Notes under the pieces: generated by a model | Databases searched by the model: none | Told to the model about the DNA's origin: nothing | What the model saw: the letters and a program-made list of their open reading frames with translations, nothing else | Source: an uncultured SAR116 cluster alpha proteobacterium | GTDB lineage: Bacteria > Pseudomonadota > Alphaproteobacteria > Puniceispirillales > Marisalimonadaceae | Length of the DNA stretch: 64,000 nucleotides | NCBI GenBank assembly: GCA_902619615.1 | Contig: CACNFD010000005.1 | Location: forward strand, 57,057 to 121,056 | Direction of reading: 5' to 3' | Made by a program: the position numbers and the translations under genes | Part shown: one piece after another, positions 1-17,392 of the stretch | Position numbering within the stretch: the stretch's first letter is position 1 | How the letters are laid out: each line of letters begins with the position of its first letter

Positions 1-497
1 AATCTTCTCAAGCCATCAGTGTTTTCTTAGGAGGAATAGTTTTAATTCTATTTTTATGTGTAGGTTATTCAGATGCCAACCCCTCTTTCATTTTTGAATG
101 GTTAGTATCGACTTTAGGATATAGCTTTTTAATCATAACGACTTTCCTAACTTTTATTGCTATTATAAGTATTATAAATATTAGTAATTATAAAAATATA
201 AGAAGAAAATTTTGGTTTGAAACAGGTTTGCAAGTATCTAATTTGATTTCTACCTTAGCTTTAACTTACACTCTTCTAGGAATAAGTCTCGGTATTGGTG
301 AGTTATCATCATCTAAATTAGATATTGATACAATCAATCAAACTATTTCTAAATTAACTCAACAATTTAGCATGGCTTTCATGACTTCGGTAATAGGTTT
401 ACCTTTGTCAGGTTTGTTTAGAAGTCTTTTAATTATAATTTATGAACATTTCACTGTTCAATCCCTTAAATCATCCTCAAAATTATTAAGCAAATAG
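1..497 (+). CDS. MotA/TolQ/ExbB-like channel protein, 5' end outside window
   Basis: The frame is open from base 3 to the TAG at 495-497, so the ORF-track start at 228 is internal and this is the C-terminal part of a longer membrane protein. I see hydrophobic segments at ISVFLGGIVLILFLC and LGYSFLIITTFLTFIAIISI, then the two-helix signature of the MotA/TolQ/ExbB family: ALTYTLLGISLGIGEL followed by QFSMAFMTSVIGLPLSGLF. In that family these helices line an ion channel that couples proton or sodium flow to movement of a periplasmic partner. It heads a plus-strand run with two single-span membrane proteins 8 bp and about 570 bp downstream. The partner could be one of these or the ExbD-like gene at 12744. 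Family level is fairly sure; the specific role is unknown. Confidence 0.7.
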   Translation, partial: SSQAISVFLGGIVLILFLCVGYSDANPSFIFEWLVSTLGYSFLIITTFLTFIAIISIINISNYKNIRRKFWFETGLQVSNLISTLALTYTLLGISLGIGELSSSKLDIDTINQTISKLTQQFSMAFMTSVIGLPLSGLFRSLLIIIYEHFTVQSLKSSSKLLSK

Positions 498-3395: not shown

Positions 3396-4910
3396 CTAAC
3401 TATTTCTTTTTTTTCTAAACTTGCTTCTGAATTTTGTGTTTTCAGAGGTAACAGGCTTTGGCAGGGTGATTTTAGTTCTTGAAGCATAAGATTTTACACC
3501 AGTGTAAACTTCACAAGCAATCTTTTCATTTTTTCCTGTAATCCCGATGGTTTTTGTCAATTCATAAAATCCTGATCCACCAAATCCACCTCCTGACATT
3601 AAATTGGCAGCAAGTGAAAATAAAAGACTTTGATTTCTAAGAAGTAGAATCTCGTTATCATGCGAAAGGTTAGCAATTTGAATTTTCCCTTGTTCATCAA
3701 CTTTTTTTGTTGCACTGAGGGCTTTTTGTACTCTTAAATTCATTTCTTCATTAATTATAACCATTCTCTCAACAAGCTTGTTATCTGTAGCAACCTTGCT
3801 TGCTAGAACAGCGTATTGAGCTTTAAGTTCGCTTAATTGTTCACCTAAGCCTAAATTTTCTCCTAACGCGTCAAGTATGGCATGTTGTCTGTTTTGTTGT
3901 TCTATAAGAAATGGCCACCAACCACTCTTAGGATCGTTTTTTTCTGATTTAGATAGTTCTGCCATTACTTGCTTATTCATTCTTCTGGCATCAGCTAATT
4001 GTGACTGATATTGTTGTTTATAAGGATTTCTATTATCAGCAGCAATTTCAAAAAATACAGTCTCAGCCCATTTAAAAGGATTTAATCCTTTGAAAGGTCC
4101 GTCAGTATTCAGATTTAATTTTTTATCGCCTGCTCTTTGATAGCCAGTTAAAGCATTCATATTACCAGCTTGAATATTTTGTTTTACATTTATACCATAA
4201 AACTGCCACGCACCATAAATTGTAAGAGCACCTATGTTATCTGGTCCCTTAATGGCTTTAGATATATATTGTATTCCAAGATTTTTCTTACCACCAATAT
4301 CTCTTAAATAATAATGAACAAGACCATATGCAAATAGAGCATCAGCTTTTATTTGTTTCTTATTTTTATTAAAACCAGTTTTCATGTCACCGATAGCTCT
4401 GATAGTTGCTAGATCGTCGATGCTTTTCATTCTTAAAAATCTATTAAAAAGTGTCTCAATTTCTTTCGTTTCGAAGGCTCCATTAAATGTATTTAGTGAT
4501 GAAACATAAGGGTCATTACTTGAAGATGGCATGGAGTTCAAGATTTTGACAATTTCACTCCTTTTTTTTCCAAAATCATTTTCAACTAATGCAACGTTTG
4601 GCTTTGGTAGATTTTTAATAGTTTGAGGTATAGTGGGTTCACACATTTGTTTAGCTAGTTTTGTGTTTGAATTGTTCCCAGACATACTTTGCCCACTAGT
4701 GTTCATATTTGTTGAACTTTTGTTTTGGTTTAATCCCTTGAGCATTCCTCCTAATGGATTAGATCCAGAATTGGTTTGAGGGATTTTTAGTTTTTCACCA
4801 ACATCCTTTTGAATTTTATCAGTAAGCGCTTTCAGATCAAAAGCATGAACATTTTTAGATATAGCTAAAACTAAAAATATATAAAAAAAGTTCTTAAGAA
4901 ATTTTGTCAT
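3396..4910 (-). CDS. Exported Sel1/TPR-like repeat protein
   Basis: 504 residues. Sec-type signal (FLKNFFYIFLVLAISKNVHA, cleavage near 23), then a Gly/Asn/Ser-rich low-complexity region to about 85. Residues about 150-290 look like Sel1-type helical pairs (ADALFAYGLVHYYLRD, GALTIYGAWQFYG). The C-terminal half is helical with a possible coiled coil (LGLGEQLSELKAQYAVLASK), and a glycine-rich stretch MSGGGFGGSGF lies near residue 440. Sel1 repeats usually scaffold protein contacts in the periplasm or envelope. It is the last gene of the five-gene minus-strand operon, 21 bp after the 530-residue paralogue. Repeat assignment is tentative. Confidence 0.55.
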   Translation of the reverse strand: MTKFLKNFFYIFLVLAISKNVHAFDLKALTDKIQKDVGEKLKIPQTNSGSNPLGGMLKGLNQNKSSTNMNTSGQSMSGNNSNTKLAKQMCEPTIPQTIKNLPKPNVALVENDFGKKRSEIVKILNSMPSSSNDPYVSSLNTFNGAFETKEIETLFNRFLRMKSIDDLATIRAIGDMKTGFNKNKKQIKADALFAYGLVHYYLRDIGGKKNLGIQYISKAIKGPDNIGALTIYGAWQFYGINVKQNIQAGNMNALTGYQRAGDKKLNLNTDGPFKGLNPFKWAETVFFEIAADNRNPYKQQYQSQLADARRMNKQVMAELSKSEKNDPKSGWWPFLIEQQNRQHAILDALGENLGLGEQLSELKAQYAVLASKVATDNKLVERMVIINEEMNLRVQKALSATKKVDEQGKIQIANLSHDNEILLLRNQSLLFSLAANLMSGGGFGGSGFYELTKTIGITGKNEKIACEVYTGVKSYASRTKITLPKPVTSENTKFRSKFRKKRNS

Positions 4911-4931: not shown

Positions 4932-6524
4932 TTATTTGAATGCACTAGAGCCAGTTCCAGCTCCTTTAAAGCCACCTTTTGAACTGCCACTTGATTCTGG
5001 ACTAGAGCTTGAAGATTTTTTAGGAGTATTGGATTGAGACTTGGCTTTAGCTTGACCTTCTTTAAATCCTTTTTGAAAAGAAGATTTATCTTTTTTTGCA
5101 TCATCAATTGCTTTGTCAAAACCTGCTTTTACTCCCTTAGATCTTTGATTTTCTCTAATCATATCTTGAGTAACTCTTGCTTGAGATGCCTCCATTAATT
5201 GAGCTTGTCTAACTGCTTTAGATGAAATTCCATAAATCGAAACAAACATTTCCTGACCTGAGATAGGGTGTGTGTATTTTTTTCCTTTTAATTGGGACAT
5301 ACCTTGAATATCAAGGTCTTCAACTTTTTGAGAAATAGTTTCAGCAAAAGATGTTACTGACTGATTTTCTGTTTCACCCACATTCCCAGTAGTAACTTCT
5401 TGTAATTTTTCTTTAGCACTTCTTTTAGAAGAAGCTTCTGAAAATAATACAAATGCTATTTGCTTTTGAGCGCTCAATTGTGCTTGTCCTTTTGCTGTTC
5501 TTGTAGCTTTTGAGGATTTACCTTTAAGGGGACTGGAACCAATTGATATTAACCAGAAGTTACCTTTGTCATCAAAAAATTTCCTTACACCTTGGGCTGT
5601 AGACCAATCTATAGAATTTATAAAATCTTTCACAGATAAAGAACCTGGGTCATAAGCTACCTCTTGACCAGAATAAAGCATTCTTGCTCTTTCTTCTTCT
5701 TTTGTCGTCCATATACTAACAATTGTTGTAGCATATTGTTCTCCATCCCAAGATTCAAAGCTTGCTATAGGAACAAGACCAACCACATTCATTTTTGAAA
5801 ATGTTTCAATAGAACTCACATTTTCTTGTTGCAAAGATCCTCTAAGGGTTTCTAATTCATTTTTTAAATTATTTAGATCAGTCTCAGTTGCTTCTAAATC
5901 TGCTTTTGCTTTTGCAAGATCATCTGCTAGTTTTTTCTCAACTTTGCCTGCGTCAAATTCTGGATTTATTCTTTTAATAGTCGCAGTAATTCCTTCCTTA
6001 GCTAACACAGAAAAATCAATTCCATTGAACTTAGCAGCCTCTGCTTTATTTGCTCTCCTAAGAGCAAGTTTATAGTTTCTGAATGCCTTATTAATTTTAT
6101 TCTGTGTAGCCTTCATTTTGTTATCAAATTCAGTAGAGAAGGGTGACTCTGGCATAGTTATAACATCCTCTGCTGACATAGTGGTTCTTATAAACTCTAT
6201 AAATTGTCTTTTAGCTTCAAGAGATGCCTCAGAAGCTTTAATTCTTCTCATTGTTAGGAAGTCGGGATTGCTTGCAGGATCGGGCTCAGGCAAAACTGCT
6301 GTTCCCACAGCCACAAACAAGCCATCATTGTCACCCTCAGTTAGGCCAACTTCGTTTAAAAACTCTTGTGCTAAGTCTTCTGATGATGCGCTTTCGCTAT
6401 AAAGAGGTGCTTCGGATTTTTGTGTCTTCTCAATTACTTCATTAGTTGTTTGCGATGCAACTGAGTAAGAGTGGCTTGATATTGAAACTATTAAAATTAA
6501 AATTGTTTTAATTAAAATTTTCAT
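4932..6524 (-). CDS. Exported protein, short paralogue of the 913-residue CsgG-like protein
   Basis: 530 residues with an N-terminal signal (cleavage near SYSVAS). The whole mature part is homologous to the first ~500 residues of the protein encoded at 6945-9686. Shared blocks include STEFD, NPDFL/NPNFL, ISAEDLITIP versus MSAEDVITMP, GQAQLSAQKQ versus GRAELFAQKE, and the identical SFQKGFKEGQA. Residues about 195-235 form a heptad-like coiled coil (KADLEATETDLNNLKNELE). It ends in a Ser/Gly-rich tail where the paralogue instead continues into FlgT-like and CsgG-like domains. It is the fourth gene of the minus operon. The family is unknown to me; the duplicated domain may act as an envelope or outer-membrane-associated assembly module. 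Confidence 0.65.
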   Translation of the reverse strand: MKILIKTILILIVSISSHSYSVASQTTNEVIEKTQKSEAPLYSESASSEDLAQEFLNEVGLTEGDNDGLFVAVGTAVLPEPDPASNPDFLTMRRIKASEASLEAKRQFIEFIRTTMSAEDVITMPESPFSTEFDNKMKATQNKINKAFRNYKLALRRANKAEAAKFNGIDFSVLAKEGITATIKRINPEFDAGKVEKKLADDLAKAKADLEATETDLNNLKNELETLRGSLQQENVSSIETFSKMNVVGLVPIASFESWDGEQYATTIVSIWTTKEEERARMLYSGQEVAYDPGSLSVKDFINSIDWSTAQGVRKFFDDKGNFWLISIGSSPLKGKSSKATRTAKGQAQLSAQKQIAFVLFSEASSKRSAKEKLQEVTTGNVGETENQSVTSFAETISQKVEDLDIQGMSQLKGKKYTHPISGQEMFVSIYGISSKAVRQAQLMEASQARVTQDMIRENQRSKGVKAGFDKAIDDAKKDKSSFQKGFKEGQAKAKSQSNTPKKSSSSSPESSGSSKGGFKGAGTGSSAFK

Positions 6525-6533
6525 AAAATACTC

Positions 6534-6941
6534 CTAATTAATATTATATTTTTTAAAAAATAATTCCTTTTTAGGAAAGGCGAAAACCACAATATATTTA
6601 TCTTTAAATCTTCTATCTTCAATTTTCCTAGAATTATTAAAATTTAGTTTTGACTTATTTGAAACGTTAATTTCTTTTTTGTTAAAGAATTTAGAGGTAT
6701 TAATAAAGAAAGACTTGAACTGGTTTATGGAATCTAACATTCCTTGTCTAGATAATAATTTCCTACTAGATCCTTTTTCCCATTTATAAATAATCTGAGA
6801 AAAATAAAAATTTTTAGTTTCAAAAACTTTAGAATTTTTAAAATCATTATTTCTAATTTTTTCAAATTCATTTTTAATGGTTGAAGCTAAACTAGAAAAA
6901 TTAAAAATAACAAAAATAAAAATTATTAAAATTTTTTTCAT
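6534..6941 (-). CDS. Small exported protein of unknown function
   Basis: 135 residues with a clear signal peptide (KKILIIFIFVIFNFSSLAS) and a basic mature domain of about 115 residues ending in DKYIVVFAFPKKEL. It sits between the two large paralogues, 3 bp after the 913-residue protein and 9 bp before the 530-residue one, so it is part of the same transcript. No recognised family. The closing strand-like YIVVFAF is reminiscent of small FlgT/LPP20-type domains, but this is only a resemblance. Confidence 0.5.
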   Translation of the reverse strand: MKKILIIFIFVIFNFSSLASTIKNEFEKIRNNDFKNSKVFETKNFYFSQIIYKWEKGSSRKLLSRQGMLDSINQFKSFFINTSKFFNKKEINVSNKSKLNFNNSRKIEDRRFKDKYIVVFAFPKKELFFKKYNIN

Positions 6942-6944
6942 TTT

Positions 6945-9686
6945 TTACCAGTCTTTATCTTTATCAATTTTTTTCATCATTTTTTTGTTTTTTGCCTTAA
7001 TTATTTTAATTTTTTCTTTGGCAATGTCAGAAGCAGAAGGCAGTTTTTCAAATATTGGTCTTATAATAATACCTTGTTGTGCATCTAATGAAGTTTCTTT
7101 ATCTTCTAAACTTATTAATTTTAAAACGGATTGCTTAGATGAACCTTCTAGAAATTTTGCTTTACCAACAATATTCTCAACCCTTCCAGAAAATTGGTTT
7201 AATGTTTGATCTATGACCCTTGGTCCTAACTTAATGATATTATAAGTACTTTTTTTATTAAAAAAGCTATTACCTTGGTCAACAGTCAACTTATTGTTCT
7301 TGAAAGCTATAAGTTTAGCAGGGAAAAAGGTGTCAGTTATTTTTCTTGCTAATCTCTCAGCGATTAATTTAGAAAACTTAGATAAACTTCCTCCGGCTTG
7401 TGATAGTGACATACTATCAGAGAAGATGATTTGTGATGTTGCAATATCAACAATGCTAACAGTTAAATCTATTTCAGATTGTTTGGTTGATATTGTCTCT
7501 CCCATCAGTTTTGCTTTTATAGTTTTATTATTTATATTTTGTAGAGAAGTAACTATAATATAATCAGCACCGACTTTATTACCTAATTTTGCTAATTCTT
7601 CAGTTCTTACATTTGAGCCTTTAATAAAATTTATCTCTTTATCAATTTCTTTTGAGTTTTTTCTATCCAATAGGGCAAACCTATTACTTTTAACAAGCAT
7701 TGATCTCAGTTGTGGATTAAATATTTTTTCGAAACTTTTCGCAGAGGATCTATCTTTTATTCGATTATTAATTTTGACTGGTGAGACGACAAATCTCATT
7801 CTTTTAAGCTCTGAGGATAGTTGTAATTTTGATACATTTACATTCAATTTAGCTTCAAACATTTCACCAGATTGATTTTTCCCAACTGATATGATTTGCC
7901 AGCTCTGGATAACACCTTTTGTGCTTTGTTTTACTTTTTCTTGAAAGGATGAAGAAGAAGCAAAAGTTTCATCTCCATCTTTAACTGTTTCAAAAGAAGC
8001 CATGTTAGAAGATGTCTGAGATGACATTTGAAGGCCATTCACCTGAGAAATTGCTTGTACGAGACCATCCTTGATCGCGTCTTTAGAATTGAAACCTACA
8101 CCAGTAATTGAGACTGAAACCACAGTTAGTTTGCTTCTGGAATTTGATTCAGTTGAAGATGTTGGGTTTGGATTTTTACCTGATACTTTAGTTTGTGGTT
8201 TTGCATTAGCTTGACCTTCTTTAAATCCCTTTTGAAAAGAAGCTTTATCTTTTTTTGCGTCATCAGTTGCTTTGTCAAGGCCAGATTTTACTCCTTGAGA
8301 CCTTTGATTTTCATTTATCATATTAACGCTAGCAGAATATTGTGATGCTTCCATAGCTCTGGCATTTAGTGTAGATGAAACAGATAATGAATAAACAGCC
8401 ACATACATTTTTTGATTAGTAATAGGGTGGGTGACAATGTCGCTAAATCTCTTTGAAGCACCTTGAATTTGAAGGTTTTCAAGCTTTTGGTAAATTGTTT
8501 CTGCAAATGAGCTTGCTACTTGATTTTCAGAAGTACCATCAGCTTTAGACATTTCTTGAATCTTATCTTTGGCTTCTCTACTTAAAGTAACATCACCTTT
8601 AAGTGCAAGTGCAAGTTCCTTTTGTGCAAATAACTCTGCTCTTCCTTTTGCTGTCCTCATTTGCGCAGATGATTTGCCCTTAATTGGTGTTGCTCCAATA
8701 CCAAATAAAAAAAACTCACCTTTATTATCAATAAATTTTCTACCACCTATTGCTGATGCCCAATTAGTTGTTTTGATATAATCCTTAACACTCATATTTC
8801 CTGGTTCAAGCTTTATTGGAACTCCCTTCAAAAGTGCTAGAGACCTTTGTTCTTGCTCAGGAGACCACATCTTTATTACTGCAATTTCATATTGTCCATC
8901 TACAAATGACTCGAAATGAGCAACTTGATACGCACCTACAAGTGTCATTGATGATAATGTCTTGACAGAGGATGTGTTTTCTTGCGAAATCTGACCTTGC
9001 AATTTTTTGGCTAATTGTTTTAAAGAACTTATTTCACTCTCTAAGGCTAAAAGTTCTGCTTCAGCTTTTTTTAAATCTTTAGCTTTTTTTTTGCCGGAAG
9101 CATCTATTTTTATATTTAATTTTGAAATAAATTGAGACAGTGGGCCAGCCATTACAGCACTAATAGATATACCATCTATATTATTAAAATTATTACTAAG
9201 TGTTTTATCGTAGTTAATTGCAGCCTTTTTGTATTTTCTAATTTTACTTTGTAATTTCAATTCTAAGTTATATTTTTTCTCATCAAATTCAGTTGATAAT
9301 CCAGAACTAGGAATAGTTATAAGGTCTTCTGCTGAAATTGTAGTTCTAATATATGATATGATGTCGCCTTTAGCAGTAATATTAGCCTCAAAGGCCTTCA
9401 TTGCTCTAATGTTCAAGAAGTTAGGATTTGTAGATGGATCTACTTCTTCAAATACACTGCTTCCAATGGAAATAAAAAACCCTTTATCTTCGTTCCAACC
9501 TTCAGACACTCCTGCATCTAAAATAAAATCTTGTGCTAATTCAGATGCAGTTTTATTTTCTAGAACAAATGGCTCAGAATTAGCTAGATTCCTCACTCTC
9601 TCAACTTCATTTGCGTTTGCATTTAAGAAGAAGAAAAATGATAGCAGAAAGACGTAACGTTTCTGTAAAAAAAAAGATTTTAACAT
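6945..9686 (-). CDS. Large exported protein with duplicated N-domain plus FlgT/LPP20-like and CsgG-like domains
   Basis: 913 residues. Signal peptide (FLLSFFFFLNANA), a ~470-residue N-terminal domain shared with the 530-residue neighbour and including a coiled coil (about 205-240), and a polar linker around 500-545. A ~100-residue domain beginning ITGVGFNSKDAIKDGLVQAI then resembles the FlgT/LPP20 N-domain. The C-terminal domain has the hallmarks of CsgG/LpoB-like proteins: RFALLDRKNSKEI, then ELAKLGNKVGADYIIV, then SIVDIATSQIIFSD. CsgG-fold proteins act at the outer membrane or as wall-synthase activators. It is the second gene of the operon. The CsgG-like call is by motif recognition only; the N-domain is unrecognised. 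Confidence 0.7.
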   Translation of the reverse strand: MLKSFFLQKRYVFLLSFFFFLNANANEVERVRNLANSEPFVLENKTASELAQDFILDAGVSEGWNEDKGFFISIGSSVFEEVDPSTNPNFLNIRAMKAFEANITAKGDIISYIRTTISAEDLITIPSSGLSTEFDEKKYNLELKLQSKIRKYKKAAINYDKTLSNNFNNIDGISISAVMAGPLSQFISKLNIKIDASGKKKAKDLKKAEAELLALESEISSLKQLAKKLQGQISQENTSSVKTLSSMTLVGAYQVAHFESFVDGQYEIAVIKMWSPEQEQRSLALLKGVPIKLEPGNMSVKDYIKTTNWASAIGGRKFIDNKGEFFLFGIGATPIKGKSSAQMRTAKGRAELFAQKELALALKGDVTLSREAKDKIQEMSKADGTSENQVASSFAETIYQKLENLQIQGASKRFSDIVTHPITNQKMYVAVYSLSVSSTLNARAMEASQYSASVNMINENQRSQGVKSGLDKATDDAKKDKASFQKGFKEGQANAKPQTKVSGKNPNPTSSTESNSRSKLTVVSVSITGVGFNSKDAIKDGLVQAISQVNGLQMSSQTSSNMASFETVKDGDETFASSSSFQEKVKQSTKGVIQSWQIISVGKNQSGEMFEAKLNVNVSKLQLSSELKRMRFVVSPVKINNRIKDRSSAKSFEKIFNPQLRSMLVKSNRFALLDRKNSKEIDKEINFIKGSNVRTEELAKLGNKVGADYIIVTSLQNINNKTIKAKLMGETISTKQSEIDLTVSIVDIATSQIIFSDSMSLSQAGGSLSKFSKLIAERLARKITDTFFPAKLIAFKNNKLTVDQGNSFFNKKSTYNIIKLGPRVIDQTLNQFSGRVENIVGKAKFLEGSSKQSVLKLISLEDKETSLDAQQGIIIRPIFEKLPSASDIAKEKIKIIKAKNKKMMKKIDKDKDW

Positions 9687-9701: not shown

Positions 9702-10841
9702 TTATATGCCTTGGGCTTTTAAGCTATTTACAATTTCTTGTGCAGCTTTCTCACCAGCTTTTATTAAAGCATTTTTTTCAGCCTCATTGTCTTCTAATCC
9801 TTGTGATCTTACCTGGACTGGACCGATAGATGCTACTACTTCAGGAAATCCATCAATTATTTGGGACACGTCTACTCTTATACTTGCTGATACTGTAAAG
9901 TTTCCACTAACTTTGTCTACAAGAGCAGTATTCACATTAATGGTACCAATAGCAACGAAACCAATGATTTTGTTACATCTATCATTTTCGGCAATAGCAT
10001 CAAAAATTTCAGCTTCGGTGTCATCAGTTAATTTATCCAGTGTTGAAAATTCTTCTTCAATTATATCACTTGGAGGAGCACCACATCTCTTTGCAAATGA
10101 CGGATATCTAATACCTCTAAAACCATTGTTACTTAATGTTTTGGCTATGTTATTATTTAAGTCAGATGAAGGCATTATAACCCATGCTCTTTCCGAAGAT
10201 CTTTGCTTTATTTCTGTGCTTCCACCTGTAACTGTTTTTTTAAAAGCACTGGCTTCTTTGTTCACGACAGTTGTAGTTCCGTCTGTAGTAGCATTTTTTT
10301 CAGCAGCTACTCCTTTTTCAACTTTTTGAATTTTGGCAACTTTATTATCATATACTTTTGTATCAGTTGATTCTGCTTTTCTGGCTATAAAAAATGAAAC
10401 CATTCTTTTACGCTTTTTACCCGAATTAGAACTACTTGCTGTGTTATTTCCGCCATATAGAAGGGACTCAAAAAGTTTACCATTAACTGTAGCTCTAACT
10501 TTAACGTTTAGTTTAAGATCTTTTTGATCTTGTTTTGACTTAGTAACGTTAACAAAACTATCAGTTTGTGAATTTATAGTTTCTTTCACTTTAAGATATT
10601 GGTCTAATTTATTTCTTTCAGTAACACACTTACTAATAAATTTTTGTAAAACACTTTGTTTAGCTTTTGTGATACCTTCTGAAATTACTTCAGGTGATGG
10701 TTTGGGAGTTCCAGAAAAAAAACCTTTTGGTTTTGGTATATCAACACTCACAGTCGCATCAAATGTTGTGTCAGCATTACATACAGCAAAAGCGTTCAAA
10801 GGAAAGAATATCATAATTGAAAGGAAAATAAATTTTTTCAT
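9702..10841 (-). CDS. Exported FlgT/LPP20-like protein, first gene of minus operon
   Basis: 379 residues with a signal peptide (FIFLSIMIFFPLNAFA). An early domain (EGITKAKQSVLQKFISKCV) followed by LKLNVKVRATVNG looks like the FlgT/LPP20-type N-domain. After a Thr/Lys-rich stretch the C-terminal half (about 210-379) carries VIMPSSDLNNNIAKTL and ends with EAEKNALIKAGEKAAQEIV, a pattern typical of envelope proteins in which a strand pair is followed by an amphipathic helix. Four Cys could form disulfides. It is 15 bp upstream of the 913-residue gene and divergent from the plus operon at 11076. Domain names are tentative; export is well supported. Confidence 0.6.
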   Translation of the reverse strand: MKKFIFLSIMIFFPLNAFAVCNADTTFDATVSVDIPKPKGFFSGTPKPSPEVISEGITKAKQSVLQKFISKCVTERNKLDQYLKVKETINSQTDSFVNVTKSKQDQKDLKLNVKVRATVNGKLFESLLYGGNNTASSSNSGKKRKRMVSFFIARKAESTDTKVYDNKVAKIQKVEKGVAAEKNATTDGTTTVVNKEASAFKKTVTGGSTEIKQRSSERAWVIMPSSDLNNNIAKTLSNNGFRGIRYPSFAKRCGAPPSDIIEEEFSTLDKLTDDTEAEIFDAIAENDRCNKIIGFVAIGTINVNTALVDKVSGNFTVSASIRVDVSQIIDGFPEVVASIGPVQVRSQGLEDNEAEKNALIKAGEKAAQEIVNSLKAQGI

Positions 10842-11075: not shown

Positions 11076-11825
11076 ATGATTAAGAATTTTTTTTTCAAGA
11101 ATATCTTTACAATTCTTTTGTTATTATTTGTTACCCCTTCATTCTCTCAAGAAACCAATTTATTAAATAAAACTTTTTTAATTTTTTTAGAAAAAGAGTT
11201 TTTATCTAATCAGATCATAACTAAGAAAAACTCTAATGAAGATTATGTCACAATTTTAGATATCAAAAAGTCTGAATATCTAGTTTCTTTCGATTTGTTA
11301 AATAAAAACATCAATCAAGATTGGCTTTTAATCCCAACATTAAAGATTGTTAATAAAGTTGATAATAAAACATATGCTTTTTCTAGATCACTTGCTTTTG
11401 AAAAAAAATCCAACCTTTTGGAAATAGAAACAATTGCTAAAATGTTAGTGAGCTCTAGCTTAGAGCAGATGAAGAAAAACGGTATCCAATTTGTAATAGG
11501 CGACAAACAATTTGTTGATAAAAAAGAAAAGAAAATCGTCATCTCTCTAAATTATTTCAACTCATGTGAGAGTAACAAAATTATTGATGTCATGGAAAAA
11601 GAGTTTCCAGGTTTCATTCACATGGAAACTGAAGGTCATAATACACAAAGTAAAACTAAATTAGCTTACTATACTGTCTCTACAATATATAAAATTAAAA
11701 AATGGCTTGGTCTGACAATCAATGAATATGGTTTTAGTCCAGATGATTTTTTTATTAGGGTTTATAAATCAAAAATTGATATCAACAAACTCAGCAAATC
11801 AAAATATTTTTATGTTTGTGAATAA
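11076..11825 (+). CDS. Exported protein, first of two tandem paralogues
   Basis: 249 residues with a signal peptide (IFTILLLLFVTPSFS, cleavage near SFSQ). The C-terminal ~90 residues share a pattern with the next gene: a strand-rich start (NYFNSCESNKIIDVM), EFPGFIHM, a YYT segment, and a Lys-rich helix with KKWLGLTI. Two Cys lie in the C-terminal part. It is the first gene of the plus operon and 1 bp from the following start. The family is unrecognised; the duplication with the neighbour suggests two related periplasmic subunits. Confidence 0.55.
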   Translation: MIKNFFFKNIFTILLLLFVTPSFSQETNLLNKTFLIFLEKEFLSNQIITKKNSNEDYVTILDIKKSEYLVSFDLLNKNINQDWLLIPTLKIVNKVDNKTYAFSRSLAFEKKSNLLEIETIAKMLVSSSLEQMKKNGIQFVIGDKQFVDKKEKKIVISLNYFNSCESNKIIDVMEKEFPGFIHMETEGHNTQSKTKLAYYTVSTIYKIKKWLGLTINEYGFSPDDFFIRVYKSKIDINKLSKSKYFYVCE

Positions 11826-11826
11826 G

Positions 11827-12696
11827 ATGAACAAAATAAAAGCTACATTTTTAATAATATTTTTATCATTGATATCAATGAATGCTTATTCTGCTGAGCA
11901 AAAACCATTAATTTCATTATATGTATTAGGAGAAAATAAAAACAATAAATCTATCAAAATATCTATACAATCAACTCTTAATCAAAGCGGTTTTGTAATT
12001 AAAGATGGCAATAGGTCTATCAAAAATTTAGATTTAAAAAACACAAAAAATTTAGATAAGCTTCTTGAAAATTCTGATATTTTAAGTGACATTATTGATG
12101 CTGAATTATTGATTACTTTAAAATTAAATTATCAGCGTATCAATAAACTATCATCAAGTGTTTATATTTCTTCAGAAATATACAATACCCAAACAAAAAA
12201 TTATATATCTACTTGGTCTACTCCAAGGAAAATTATCAAGTTTCCTAAGGATTGTGATAATATTTGTGAAAACCTTTTATTAAGTGAAAAAGTTATTCTA
12301 TTGTCTGATCAACTTGGGAATAGTATCTTAAGAATTCTGGATGCAAAGTTAAAAGAACAGAAAAATTATAGTAATATTTCGAAAGTTTATAATTTTAAAT
12401 TTTATAATTTTAAAGATAAAGATATCATCTATTTAACAGATATAATGGTAAATGAATTTCCTGGATTTATCAAAATTACTAATGAACAAAGTTTTGGCAA
12501 GCAGAATAGCTGGTCTTACTATTCATCTACTGATTTATTGAAATTAAAAAAATGGTTAGTGATTTCATTATCAGACATAGATCTTAAAATTGACAAGGAT
12601 TATGAGATATCAGTGTCTGACAATAATTTTTTTATTAAAAAATTCCCATCATTTAACTCTTTAGGCTCAAAAGGCAACACAAAGAAATTTAATTAA
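11827..12696 (+). CDS. Exported protein, second of two tandem paralogues
   Basis: 289 residues when started at the ATG at 11827 instead of the ORF-track start 11722. That ATG directly follows the preceding stop and gives a proper signal peptide (ATFLIIFLSLISMNAYSA). The C-terminal region repeats the pattern of the upstream gene (NEFPGFIKI, SYYSSTDLLKLKKWLVISL). The N-terminal half (LISLYVLGENKNNKSIKISI) looks like a mixed alpha/beta periplasmic domain. No known family. Part of the operon that continues with the ExbD-like gene. Confidence 0.55.
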   Translation: MNKIKATFLIIFLSLISMNAYSAEQKPLISLYVLGENKNNKSIKISIQSTLNQSGFVIKDGNRSIKNLDLKNTKNLDKLLENSDILSDIIDAELLITLKLNYQRINKLSSSVYISSEIYNTQTKNYISTWSTPRKIIKFPKDCDNICENLLLSEKVILLSDQLGNSILRILDAKLKEQKNYSNISKVYNFKFYNFKDKDIIYLTDIMVNEFPGFIKITNEQSFGKQNSWSYYSSTDLLKLKKWLVISLSDIDLKIDKDYEISVSDNNFFIKKFPSFNSLGSKGNTKKFN

Positions 12697-12743
12697 ATCA
12701 AAAAAGTTTCTAATTTTTCCATAATTTAAATATGGAGAAAAAT

Positions 12744-13154
12744 ATGAACTCGAATTACTCACATAACCCTCTAACTGAAGTTGCTTTAGCATTATCAATG
12801 GCATTTTTTGCTTTAATGGTCCTAACAATTTTTGCACTTTCTCAAAAACAATTAAAATCAACTGAAAGTGATAAAATTTCAATAAATTCAAAATCTTCAG
12901 TTAATAAAGACAAAAAAGATGAAAAAAGAACATTAGTTTTTTATCACAATAAAAATTTTTATGATCAAAATCTAAAAAGATGGAGACTTAAAAATCATGG
13001 AGAAAAAACCGTCCGATATACCTTAGCTGTTCCAACAAAAATGTCAGTTAAAGAATTATTTGAAATTAAAAATCTTTTTCAAGGTTTTGACCTGCAAGTT
13101 ACTGAGCAAAACCAGCAATGGAATGAAGCTTTAGAGAAAATATCAACTAAATAG
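12744..13154 (+). CDS. ExbD/MotB-like bitopic protein with Glu in the ion-binding position
   Basis: 136 residues from the ATG at 12744, preferred over 12732 because GGAG lies 6 bp upstream. The layout is ExbD-like: a very short cytoplasmic start, one transmembrane helix and a periplasmic domain of about 100 residues. The start of the helix, NPLTEVALALSMAFFALM, lines up with the ExbD/TolR pattern in which Pro is followed two residues later by the proton-carrying Asp (P-x-x-D-V-x-L-x-L); here that position is Glu12. ExbD, TolR and MotB use this acid to couple ion flow through an ExbB/TolQ/MotA channel. A channel-type gene lies at the left edge of the window. The ExbD relationship is inferred from layout and helix motif only. 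Confidence 0.55.
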   Translation: MNSNYSHNPLTEVALALSMAFFALMVLTIFALSQKQLKSTESDKISINSKSSVNKDKKDEKRTLVFYHNKNFYDQNLKRWRLKNHGEKTVRYTLAVPTKMSVKELFEIKNLFQGFDLQVTEQNQQWNEALEKISTK

Positions 13155-13165
13155 GATAAATTATC

Positions 13166-13777
13166 ATGAAATTAGTATTAACAATAATTATAATTTTATC
13201 AGCTTCTATGGCGAATGCTAAAAGTTATAATCGTCCATATATAAAAATGTTATTAATTGAAAATGCAAGGCTCTCAGAATACGTTACTCCTGCCTTAGCA
13301 ATTGCAGTAGCTAAAGTTGAATCTGATTTAAGGCCTGATGCAGTTAGTAACAAAGGCGCTATAGGTGTAATGCAAATTATGCCACGTACTGGGTTATTAG
13401 AATTTGGAGTAAAAAGAAAAGATTTATTTAACCCAATTATTAATATTAAAATAGGTGTTAAATTTTTAGACCAATTAATAAAAAAGTATAGAGGGAATAT
13501 TGGAGTTGCCTTATCACATTATAACGGAGGTTCAGCAGTTGGAGTATGGCCAAATGTAAAAATTATTCCTGCTACGTATCCCTATGTTGTAAAAGTCTTA
13601 AAAAAGTCCAATGAATTAGTTAATATGGCACCTACATTACGAAAACAAAAAGATTTGATTGAAGCAAAATTCAAACTAATTCAAAGTAAAGAAAAGTCCG
13701 AAATCGATTTATTAGTTGCTAAAATAGATGATTGGTTGGAGATTTATAACAATTATAAATTAAATAAAATAAATTAA
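13166..13777 (+). CDS. Lytic transglycosylase, SLT domain
   Basis: 203 residues. Signal peptide (LTIIIILSASMANA, cleavage near 18) followed by a soluble-lytic-transglycosylase domain: the catalytic Glu52 in AVAKVESDL, the NKGAIGVMQIMP block, and LSHYNGG. Enzymes of this family cut the glycan strands of peptidoglycan in the periplasm, leaving 1,6-anhydro ends, often to open the wall for a trans-envelope complex. The remaining ~70 residues after the domain are helical and charged. It follows the ExbD-like gene by 11 bp, which fits a machine that needs a local gap in the wall. Family assignment is firm. Confidence 0.88.
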   Translation: MKLVLTIIIILSASMANAKSYNRPYIKMLLIENARLSEYVTPALAIAVAKVESDLRPDAVSNKGAIGVMQIMPRTGLLEFGVKRKDLFNPIINIKIGVKFLDQLIKKYRGNIGVALSHYNGGSAVGVWPNVKIIPATYPYVVKVLKKSNELVNMAPTLRKQKDLIEAKFKLIQSKEKSEIDLLVAKIDDWLEIYNNYKLNKIN

Positions 13778-13831: not shown

Positions 13832-15550
13832 ATGCGTGACAAACTTTTTTTTGACGACTGGAAAGAGTTTACTCTTCAAAAACCTGATGAGGTTATTTTA
13901 AATCATTTTGAAAACATAAAAAATAAAACTACGATAAATGGAACTTTAAAGTACCCAAATTTAAAAGAAGTAAACAAAGTTTTTGCGCTTTTTATAACTC
14001 ATAATTATGGATCAGTAATTTATGAATTATGTAATTTTTTAAGATATTTAAGTCAAAATAATTTACCTTTTTACAATATCATGATCATGGACAATAATGA
14101 TCTTTTAAAAAAAATTAAAAAAATAAATTTTAGAAACAGCCATGAAATATCAAACAAATTCACCTTAAAACTAGAGAGTTATAATTTTGATATTGCTTAC
14201 TCTAGAATTTCAAATTTAATTATAATCATTGAATTTTTAGAAGAAATTTTAGGTCTTGAGGAGATATTGTCATTAGATAAATCTATTAATAAAGCAAATT
14301 CCCAAAGTGATTTAAAAGCAGTTTCAAATAATATTTCTAAGAAAGTTTATTCTTATTTAAAGAACTTACTTCCAACATCACATCTGCAAAGTTTTTCAGC
14401 AGCAATTGGAAATCTCATTATAAAAATAAATAAAGATGACAATCATAAGATCGTGTCGGAGGATATATCGGATGATTTTATATTTGAGTTTTGGGTTTCC
14501 TCAGGGTCAGGAGAAAAAGATTTATTAATTAAAACCTTTACTTTAGCTGCTGATTTATGTCTGACCTATAAAAAATCAATAGAACTTAGTGAAAAATATC
14601 AAGTCTCTTCAAAGCATAAGGATTATGAGGAGTATTCTGCGAACTCGATTTCAAACGAAGTGTTAAATGAATTTCTTGAACAAATAATTTCAAATGATGA
14701 GCATGTGTTTTCAAAAAGTTTTAACAAACTTAGTATTTTGAATTCCAATAAAATTAATATTCTTAAGAAAAAAGAGCTTGGAGATATAGAAGTCTTTTCT
14801 AAATATGATGATTTATCTATGAAACTACCTTTAACTATTTTAAGAATATGTGTATTTGGAAACATGCAGAATAAGATAATAGAAAATGGAAGAAGAAAAA
14901 AAATAGATCTTCCTGATTTTTTTCAGTCATATTGTGATGATTCCAAATATTATGAACAAAGCCAAATTATACTAAACATTATAAATAATAATTCTTTTTT
15001 ATGTGAAATTTTATTTTATAAACTATGGTCCTTTGAAACTCCTAAAATTTTAAATATGATTAGAAACTATTTAAATAAGGATGAAAGTATTTTATTTGAA
15101 AACTTTTTAAATCAGAAAAAAGAAACTCTTGATTTTGATCCTAATTTAGATGACTTTGCACTCCTTAAAGAATTAGATAAGAAAAAAGAGAATTACTCTC
15201 CAGATGAATATAGAGAAGAAATTTTAACTAATTTATACAATGAATTTAAAATTTATATTAAATCGAGTGAATTCCAGTCTAACTTTAATAGTTTCTTAAA
15301 TTTCTTGAGTAAGACTAAAAAAAATTCTATTTCTTTTCGAAGAAGTGGCTTTGATTTTAATAAAAGTAATAAAGAAAATCTTGAAACAATAACTGAAATT
15401 TATAATGCTCTTATGGTTATTAAAGAGTTTTTGTGCAATTTTTTAGAAACCTTAAATCAAAATGTAAATAATCTGAAGTTTAAATTTAATGAAGATAAGA
15501 TAATTTTCTTTGAACATTTTAAATTATTATATTCTAAAGAAGGTATTTAA
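13832..15550 (+). CDS. Large cytosolic protein of unknown family
   Basis: 572 residues, without signal peptide or obvious transmembrane helix, Asn/Lys/Ile-rich and largely helical. The first 130 residues include a hydrophobic, Rossmann-like strand pattern (KVFALFITHNYGSVIY, NIMIMDNNDLL). The middle contains ISDDFIFEFWVSSGSG; the C-terminus is helical (LMVIKEFLCNFLETLNQNV). I find no nucleotide-binding, nuclease or helicase motif. It lies 54 bp after the transglycosylase and overlaps nothing; the next start is 1 bp after its stop. Its position between a wall hydrolase and a membrane-anchored protease suggests a cytoplasmic component of the same system, which is inference. Confidence 0.5.
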   Translation: MRDKLFFDDWKEFTLQKPDEVILNHFENIKNKTTINGTLKYPNLKEVNKVFALFITHNYGSVIYELCNFLRYLSQNNLPFYNIMIMDNNDLLKKIKKINFRNSHEISNKFTLKLESYNFDIAYSRISNLIIIIEFLEEILGLEEILSLDKSINKANSQSDLKAVSNNISKKVYSYLKNLLPTSHLQSFSAAIGNLIIKINKDDNHKIVSEDISDDFIFEFWVSSGSGEKDLLIKTFTLAADLCLTYKKSIELSEKYQVSSKHKDYEEYSANSISNEVLNEFLEQIISNDEHVFSKSFNKLSILNSNKINILKKKELGDIEVFSKYDDLSMKLPLTILRICVFGNMQNKIIENGRRKKIDLPDFFQSYCDDSKYYEQSQIILNIINNNSFLCEILFYKLWSFETPKILNMIRNYLNKDESILFENFLNQKKETLDFDPNLDDFALLKELDKKKENYSPDEYREEILTNLYNEFKIYIKSSEFQSNFNSFLNFLSKTKKNSISFRRSGFDFNKSNKENLETITEIYNALMVIKEFLCNFLETLNQNVNNLKFKFNEDKIIFFEHFKLLYSKEGI

Positions 15551-15551
15551 G

Positions 15552-16067
15552 ATGGATAATAAAGATAAAATTTCAGACACCTTTTTAGCATTAAATTATT
15601 TAAATTTATCTAAAAATTATTCTACGCCAGAACTAAAATCAAAATTCAACATTAAAATGGTTTGGGATGTTTACTTAAACCCACTTAAATACCAAGATCA
15701 AATTAATGAATTTTTAAAAAACAAAGTTTTTTCTGATGCTTATTTTTTAATTCTTAAAAATGAAGGGTGTATTTATCAATCAAAATTAAATGCTGCATCT
15801 AGTGAAAGAATATTTTCTAGATCATCAAATGAATTTAAAATTGAGATAGTTAAATCAAATAAAAATGAAGACGTATATTATTTAATTATTAAATTCATTA
15901 ATGATATTGATTTACAACTTTCAAATTTATATGTTATTTGCGACAATAAAAGTGATTGCATAAAGCTACCTTTTTTAAATGATAAACAGGCTCAAATTTT
16001 GATAAAAAAATCTGATAACTTTTTTAACCTTATTACAAACCCTAACGCAGAGATTTTTATAAGGTGA
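15552..16067 (+). CDS. Small cytosolic protein of unknown family
   Basis: 171 residues from the ATG at 15552, chosen over the ORF-track start 15510 because it follows the upstream stop directly and avoids a long overlap. No signal or membrane segment. The N-terminal part looks helical (FLALNYLNLSKNY); the second half is strand-rich (EDVYYLIIKFIND, LYVICDNKSDCIKLPF), suggesting a small beta-sandwich or mixed domain. Its stop overlaps the GTG start of the Lon-like gene by two bases, so the two are translationally coupled. Function unknown. Confidence 0.5.
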   Translation: MDNKDKISDTFLALNYLNLSKNYSTPELKSKFNIKMVWDVYLNPLKYQDQINEFLKNKVFSDAYFLILKNEGCIYQSKLNAASSERIFSRSSNEFKIEIVKSNKNEDVYYLIIKFINDIDLQLSNLYVICDNKSDCIKLPFLNDKQAQILIKKSDNFFNLITNPNAEIFIR

Positions 16068-17392
16068 AAAAATATACAGTTATGATTCCTACTACTAATA
16101 ATGTAGTAGGTATTACTGATATAGTAAAAGAAGATCCATTGGTTTCTTCAGTTATATGTGAAAATAATAATTTAGAAGCCTTGCCAATCAGCTCTTTTTA
16201 CAATTCTTTTGTAAAAAGCCCTACTGGAATAATTGAAAAATTAGTCGGACACTCCTCATTTAGGATAGATATAACCAAACCAATTCATAATGGAAAAAGT
16301 TGGCAATTGGCGATTGCTATAGCCCATATTTTCACAAAACATAATATTTTAAATTTTTCAAATGAAAATCAGCTTTTAACAAATAAAACGGACGAAATTA
16401 TTTGGGCAAGTGGAACTATCAATTCAAATTTAGAAATAAAAAAAATAAATTACCTTGATCAAAAAATTGATAATTCAATGAATTTTTTCAAAAATTGTAT
16501 AAAAAATGAAGTTCAAATTAATATTATATTGAGTATTCACAATAAAGATGATTTAAACAGCCTTTTGATAAATAATAAATTCTTAAGAGACGCAATAAAA
16601 ACTAAATTAATTAAAGTTTTATTTTTTAAGAATTTATATGATCTATTTGATCATTTGAATTTAAAAAATTTACTAAAAAAACCAACTAAGCGGTTATATT
16701 TTTTTCAAAAATCAAAAAAAACACTTAACTTACTTTCTATCATCTTTGTAACAATTTTGTTTGCTCTTATGTTCATAAATGTTTGGCAAAAAACTTCACC
16801 TTTAATAATTTTAAATAACAATAAAAACTATAGTTTATTACTTACAACTTTAAAAATGTATAGATATGGTAATTTGACTGAAAGGGTAATCGCTTATGTT
16901 TATGATTACATTCAGACACTGCAGTCAAATGAAATAAACAAACAAATGAGATTAAATTTTATTCCATACAATGAATTAGAAACTAATAAATTAAAATGTA
17001 CACCAGGTAGTCAGTCTATAGATCATGTCTGTAATTTAAACTTAGAGGTTTCTAATATTGGAGTAGATACAGTTTTTTTGTGGGCATTAAAATTTTCTAA
17101 TCTTAATTTAGAGGAAAAAGGATTTCAAAAAACTAATAAGAAATCAGATATAGTAAATGGCATGATTAAAAGTAACGAAGCTTTCTTAATTGATATAAAA
17201 AATAGCCATGAACCTATAACTCTATTTATAGTTTATAGTAAGGAGTTTGATATTAAGATCATAGATTGGTTAAAGCGTGTTGATAGAGAAAAGTCTTTGC
17301 TAGAAACAACTATTAAGAGGATAAGAGCCCTTGGTTATGGTTATACGATTAACAGCATTAAAAATGTGAAATTAATTGAAAATAAAATTTAA
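16064..17392 (+). CDS. Membrane-anchored Lon-like (S16) protease domain protein
   Basis: 442 residues, GTG start overlapping the previous stop. Residues about 50-165 match the proteolytic domain of Lon: NGKSWQLAIAIAHIF corresponds to the Ser-containing block (Ser79), SGTINSNLEIKKINYLDQK aligns without gaps to the Lon block containing the catalytic Lys (Lys134), and ILSIHNKDDL corresponds to the following IP-x-N-x-x-DL motif. There is no ATPase domain. One transmembrane helix (about 221-240, LLSIIFVTILFALMFINVW) is followed by a ~200-residue, probably periplasmic domain with two Cys (KCTPGSQSIDHVCNLNL) and a strand-rich region. An N-terminal cytoplasmic peptidase with a periplasmic sensor-like tail is unusual. 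The S16 similarity is my own alignment by eye. Confidence 0.62.
   Translation: MKKYTVMIPTTNNVVGITDIVKEDPLVSSVICENNNLEALPISSFYNSFVKSPTGIIEKLVGHSSFRIDITKPIHNGKSWQLAIAIAHIFTKHNILNFSNENQLLTNKTDEIIWASGTINSNLEIKKINYLDQKIDNSMNFFKNCIKNEVQINIILSIHNKDDLNSLLINNKFLRDAIKTKLIKVLFFKNLYDLFDHLNLKNLLKKPTKRLYFFQKSKKTLNLLSIIFVTILFALMFINVWQKTSPLIILNNNKNYSLLLTTLKMYRYGNLTERVIAYVYDYIQTLQSNEINKQMRLNFIPYNELETNKLKCTPGSQSIDHVCNLNLEVSNIGVDTVFLWALKFSNLNLEEKGFQKTNKKSDIVNGMIKSNEAFLIDIKNSHEPITLFIVYSKEFDIKIIDWLKRVDREKSLLETTIKRIRALGYGYTINSIKNVKLIENKI

Follow-up and report, generated by a model that had tools for sequence, protein, structure and literature searches.

The five-gene block

The window, which is the whole 64,000-nucleotide stretch analysed here (G000:C5:57057-121056), belongs to a genome of 2.16 Mb that is 99% complete and whose closest named relatives are single-cell and metagenome genomes of the SAR116 cluster. 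Five genes coding exported proteins form a leftward (minus-strand) block in the order E-B-C-A-D. Gene E (9702..10841), the first of the block, encodes an exported protein of 379 aa. Gene B (6945..9686) encodes an exported protein of 913 aa, in which an A-like N-domain (residues 26 to about 495) is fused to a FlgT-like C-terminal part (from about residue 517 to 913). Gene C (6534..6941; 135 aa) is located between B and A; gene A (4932..6524) encodes an exported protein of 530 aa of the FTT1539c/DUF6844 type; and gene D (3396..4910; 504 aa, exported) lies directly downstream of A in SAR116 loci of this type. The reading frames of A and B are found exactly where the first-pass annotation of this DNA, made from the sequence alone, had placed them, and both proteins carry the signal peptides expected from its description of the pair as exported.

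Gene C matches the first third of a gene of 402-412 aa in other SAR116 species (L051, L054-L056); in the window clade it is truncated and its 3' part is missing. The compared genomes are in part single-cell or metagenome assemblies, and one assembly contains two distinct A alleles (G044:C28 and G044:C109; 94% and 79% to the window), perhaps representing two strains.

Protein A and its family

Protein A begins with a signal peptide, followed by two alpha/beta lobes with a helical coiled-coil (residues ~131-233) between them, a C-terminal helical tail, and a disordered end (...GTGSSAFK). The fold models of A and of the C-terminal part of B are built on 7-15 sequences and reach pLDDT values of 69-74; in the A model (pLDDT 73.9) the tail helix occupies residues 435-495, with moderate to low confidence. 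A Foldseek search with this model matches 4QVR, the structure of FTT1539c of Francisella tularensis (E 7.5e-11, prob 1.00), and the A-family profile also matches the 4QVR chain by sequence over most of A (E 7.2e-11). Profile and fold together place A in the Francisella FTT1539c (DUF6844-type) family. It falls below the cut-off of the curated Pfam family DUF6844 (PF20891, 27 bits), where a search up to E 1 gave no match; the A-like domain of B is set apart further by its fusion to a FlgT-like part. Two outgroup A-like homologues also score below the cut-off (19.8 and 20.6 bits); an Azospirillum homologue passes it at 86.1 bits. FTT_1539c appears among immunoreactive hypothetical proteins in PMC10963506 and PMC4207810, and a literature search for DUF6844 found no paper.

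The FlgT-like C-terminal part of protein B

The C-terminal part of B (6945..8138, minus strand; residues 517-913) is delimited by fold search and by separate outgroup genes of 402-423 aa that encode this part alone. It had been labelled FlgT/CsgG-like, which is correct at the level of the fold. The best fold matches of its model (pLDDT 68.8) are to FlgT of the Vibrio H ring (3W1E, E 4.4e-19; 8Z5N, E 2.1e-18; prob 1.00), with 401-409 alignment columns that take in the three-domain FlgT fold; global TM scores of only 0.27-0.34 make the placement of the domains uncertain. CsgG-, PelC-, TolB- and LpoB-like folds follow FlgT in the match list. Residues 659-758 match Pfam LpoB (E 7.2e-8), the only Pfam family above cut-off in B, and some stand-alone homologues pass the Pfam CsgG cut-off; the Pfam domains of FlgT have no match in B. 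Profile searches of B and of its FlgT-like part against PDB sequences returned nothing useful and no solved FlgT, the resemblance emerging only in the fold search.

B resembles the LpoB, CsgG and TolB-N domains in its LpoB match but differs from them in two respects: its N-terminus is without a lipobox cysteine (the translation has no cysteine close to where the signal peptide ends), and the matching domain makes up only a section of a longer FlgT-like chain. It resembles Vibrio FlgT in fold, but differs in the missing FlgT Pfam match and in lying outside a flagellar locus. The flagellar gene flgI of the source genome is on another contig (C25), and two relatives with FlgI (G007 and G004, 90-95% complete) have no FlgT-like gene. 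This distribution tells against a flagellar FlgT identity for the C-terminal part of B and indicates that the FlgT-like gene is not needed for flagella in these bacteria.

Origin of the two-domain gene

Pairwise alignment of A with residues 26-519 of B gives 45.8% amino-acid and 58.6% nucleotide identity over 485 residues, so that the two are homologous, as the first-pass annotation recognized, although the 530-residue protein does not "equal" the N-domain of the larger one. The annotation had also posited domain gain or loss in the pair with the direction left open, and had proposed a search for the N-domain alone in other genomes. Separate A-like genes are indeed found in L052, L053, L065, L067, and L071, and their layout bears on the direction. 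In two genomes of the same genus (G006 and G043; L052 and L053) a FlgT-like gene (419-423 aa) and an A-like gene (476-477 aa) are separate and adjacent, and both proteins have signal peptides. The complete genome G249 (L065), from another family of the order, has the separate layout in the same gene order inside the full cluster; G150 (L067) likewise has the two genes separate, adjacent and in the same order; and on an Azospirillum plasmid (L071) they again lie side by side as separate genes, in reversed order and beside genes of the YcfL and LpoB types. The stand-alone FlgT-like genes of the outgroups encode 402-423 aa. The N-domain tree resolves A (80/80) and B (100/99) as two groups and leaves all stand-alone homologues outside them (100/100).

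Since outgroups carry both parts as separate adjacent genes, B gained its N-domain by fusion and A lost no C-domain; as judged from gene layout and trees, B is a derived fusion of an A duplicate with the neighbouring FlgT-like gene, a gain rather than a loss. Domain loss would instead start from an ancestor with two full-length fused genes, one of which, A, later shed its FlgT-like part. The position of A and B as near neighbours in the same orientation would suit such a history, but it is scarcely credible given that the FlgT-like and the A-like part each exist in the outgroups as one independent gene, and that A orthologues keep a conserved C-terminus of their own (GxFKGxGTxSxAFK), with no FlgT-like remnant found. 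Short forms of B (742-775 aa), which are without both the coiled-coil and the tail, occur in L015 and genus g4; by these comparisons the fusion predates the split of the genus g1 and g4 lineages in this locus type.

At the corresponding site next to a TauD gene, G006 and G043 (L052, L053) carry a divergent version of the cluster; this suggests that the entire locus has been replaced between lineages. Gene relationships between species also look mosaic: L015 goes with L013 in A but stands well apart from the rest in B, D, E, and F.

The tail shared by A and B

A tract of 117 bp within the helical tail (in A, 5046..5162, codons 455-493; in B, 8205..8321, codons 456-494; both on the minus strand) is 87.2% identical in DNA between A and B, as against 56.1% in the rest of the alignment. 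It spans the segments at 5050-5095 and 8208-8255 that had been picked out by eye as nearly identical amid diverged flanks, and the codon-level comparison along the gene that had been proposed for them bears the observation out: pS between A and B is 0.31 in the tail and 0.49-0.66 elsewhere. Among codons for the same residue, 26 of 31 are identical in the tail and 92 of 170 elsewhere (Fisher p = 0.0013). Codon usage alone would give 17.8 of 31 in the tail (p = 0.0012); outside it the expectation is 85.9 of 170, so that the observed count stands at expectation, and most of the length is saturated at silent sites.

These p values are somewhat optimistic, since the tail had been named after the sequence was viewed. 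A permutation test for runs of matches searches the whole gene and is thus free of that pre-selection bias; it picks the same fragment, with p = 0.0003 for all variable sites and p = 0.018 for third positions. Statistical power is low for a tract of only 117 bp. The excess of identical silent codons in the tail is also seen in L007 (p = 0.03) and L013 (p = 0.015), and is not significant in L009 and L010 (p about 0.1). A DNA search of the whole source genome confines the tail similarity to A and B, the remaining weak hits being short AT-rich matches near the start of A. With no further copies in the genome, a simple repeat or low-complexity segment is rejected as the explanation, and neither of the outcomes that would have told against the first-pass observation (similarity no higher than elsewhere, or low complexity alone) is what the comparison gives.

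Constraint or gene conversion

The tail similarity had been put down to strong constraint or gene conversion, and orthologues from the next species clade (L011) separate the two. Strong constraint on DNA or protein in both genes, with only the tail keeping its ancestral sequence, would fit the well-preserved amino-acid sequence of the A tail and the recurrence of its motif KGFKEG in A orthologues of genus g1. Between the window and L011, however, the A tail is 78.6% identical and the rest of A 79.3%; its pS of 0.78 is like that of the rest of A and marks saturation at silent sites, and 17 of 30 codons are identical where 17.2 are expected, which is chance level. The A tail has thus diverged as much as the remainder of the gene, with no protection of its silent sites. 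In B, moreover, no part is less conserved between orthologues than the tail (61.5% to B_L011, against 76.3% for the rest of B), and protein-level selection cannot yield 26 of 31 identical silent codons between older paralogues. Constraint is largely refuted by the orthologue comparison, and we regard it as very improbable.

Conversion is the supported alternative. The B tail of the window is closer to its paralogue A (87.2%) than to its own orthologues in L011 (61.5%) and L013 (65.8%). In the tail tree the four window-clade B sequences group with window-clade A (89/90), and a single B clade is rejected (AU p = 0.018); in the tree of residues 233-454 A and B each form one group (100/100). In the rest-of-gene tree L011 and L013 are unresolved, which makes the AU test there uninformative. 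The tract is short, its paralogue identity exceeds its orthologue identity, and its tree is discordant, all of which are marks of gene conversion. The parsimonious reading of these alignments and trees is short-tract gene conversion with A as donor and B as recipient, close to the base of the window clade; this direction is indicated by the A tail following orthology and the B tail departing from it. The tail is present in A always, even in g4, and is missing from the short B forms of L015 and g4, which again suggests that the tail belongs to A. The copy at 5046..5162 would thus be the donor and that at 8205..8321 the converted copy, although recombination with A from a close relative, in place of conversion within one genome, would leave the same pattern. 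Given the similar excess in L013, with the strongest signal in the window, conversion events may recur.

Under a further explanation, relaxed selection caused the B tails of L011 and L013 to diverge fast, and the window clade simply retained an ancestral A-like tail. B_L011 and B_L013 do sit on long branches in the tail tree, and the short B forms make plain that B can dispense with its tail. Fast divergence in those species leaves unexplained, however, why synonymous divergence between A and B of the window is so low (pS 0.31, against 0.78 for the A orthologues to L011); this A-B distance is measured within the window itself and is far below that of the rest of the gene. We consider this explanation unlikely, and conversion from A to B remains the reading followed below.

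The surrounding envelope cluster

The block is part of a cluster of about 20 genes, running from L016:17598 to window position 17392, whose gene order is kept in SAR116 relatives. Its core (M, N, O, K, a lytic transglycosylase, a lipoprotein, R290, S127, a Mot-like gene, H, and G) recurs without A and B in other Alphaproteobacteria and in other Proteobacteria; the Mot-like gene is present in 16 of 288 alphaproteobacterial genomes and also in other Proteobacteria.

The Mot-like gene, whose end occupies 1..497 on the plus strand, starts 31 bases before the window and encodes a four-helix membrane protein of 175 aa. Its profile matches the 8VVN chain weakly (E 0.0047) over the last two predicted helices; none of the family exceeds the cut-off of Pfam PF01618, one of seven members reaching E 0.041. 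On this weak profile match the protein is a tentative candidate for a MotA/TolQ/ExbB-like channel subunit. Gene K (12732..13154, plus strand; 140 aa) has no meaningful Pfam match; its single N-terminal transmembrane helix, with an invariant Glu at the start, would by its pattern fit an ExbD/MotB-like protein. The lytic transglycosylase (SLT; 13166..13777, plus strand) has NCBIfam lytic transglycosylase matches, and its G249 orthologue matches Pfam SLT (8.8e-23). Genes M, N, and O (13832..17392, plus strand; 572, 185, and 442 aa) are unnamed members of the conserved core. Across the cluster, names from Pfam and NCBIfam are almost absent. For eight proteins from two other genomes, belonging to the core cluster or lying beside it, NCBIfam returned no useful name. 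Literature searches combining FlgT with either LpoB and CsgG or ExbB and a lytic transglycosylase found no paper; the envelope cluster seems to be undescribed, and it is possible that it encodes an ion-driven complex.

A model for the history and role of A and B

Gene fusion and gene conversion are known processes. At the level of genes and trees, the comparisons establish a history in which fusion preceded conversion. An FTT1539c/DUF6844-type gene, adjoined by a FlgT-like gene in the ancestral layout, was duplicated before the SAR116 family (f1) type of the cluster diversified; one duplicate then joined the FlgT-like gene at its 5' end to produce B, and the other stayed free as A. In the window clade, the A sequence for the helical tail, about 120 bp long, would later have been copied into B by homologous recombination between the neighbouring genes.

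The signal peptides, the FlgT-like and FTT1539c-like folds, and the fixed neighbours point to a role for A and B in the envelope, where they look like periplasmic parts attached to a membrane machine. Since their genes began as separate neighbours and then fused, A and the FlgT-like protein would be expected to bind each other. Both products could belong to a single envelope complex as scaffold subunits in the periplasm or at the outer membrane; the FlgT-like part would then build an outer ring, and the tail helix would serve as a contact common to both paralogues, which conversion would keep alike. We consider probable this overall reading, of duplication and fusion, later A-to-B conversion, and A and B as putative subunits of one envelope complex. 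More tentative, and on present evidence rather doubtful, is a specific version in which A and B serve as ring or scaffold subunits in an envelope machine of an undescribed kind, with a MotA/ExbB-like and ExbD-like ion-conducting drive, its own FlgT-like outer ring, and a peptidoglycan-cutting enzyme, the converted tail being a shared ring contact.

The A/B pair provides a clean example, in wild marine bacteria, of fusion followed by short-tract conversion, and the fusion hints at joint action of the FTT1539c-type protein, immunoreactive in Francisella, and a FlgT-like ring protein. Of greater interest is the cluster itself, a candidate new envelope complex that is conserved in SAR116 and as far afield as other Proteobacteria. 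Within the same cluster, genes I (11076-11825) and J (11722-12696) share a short homologous stretch (31-41% over 55-80 aa) and are possibly another paralogue pair.
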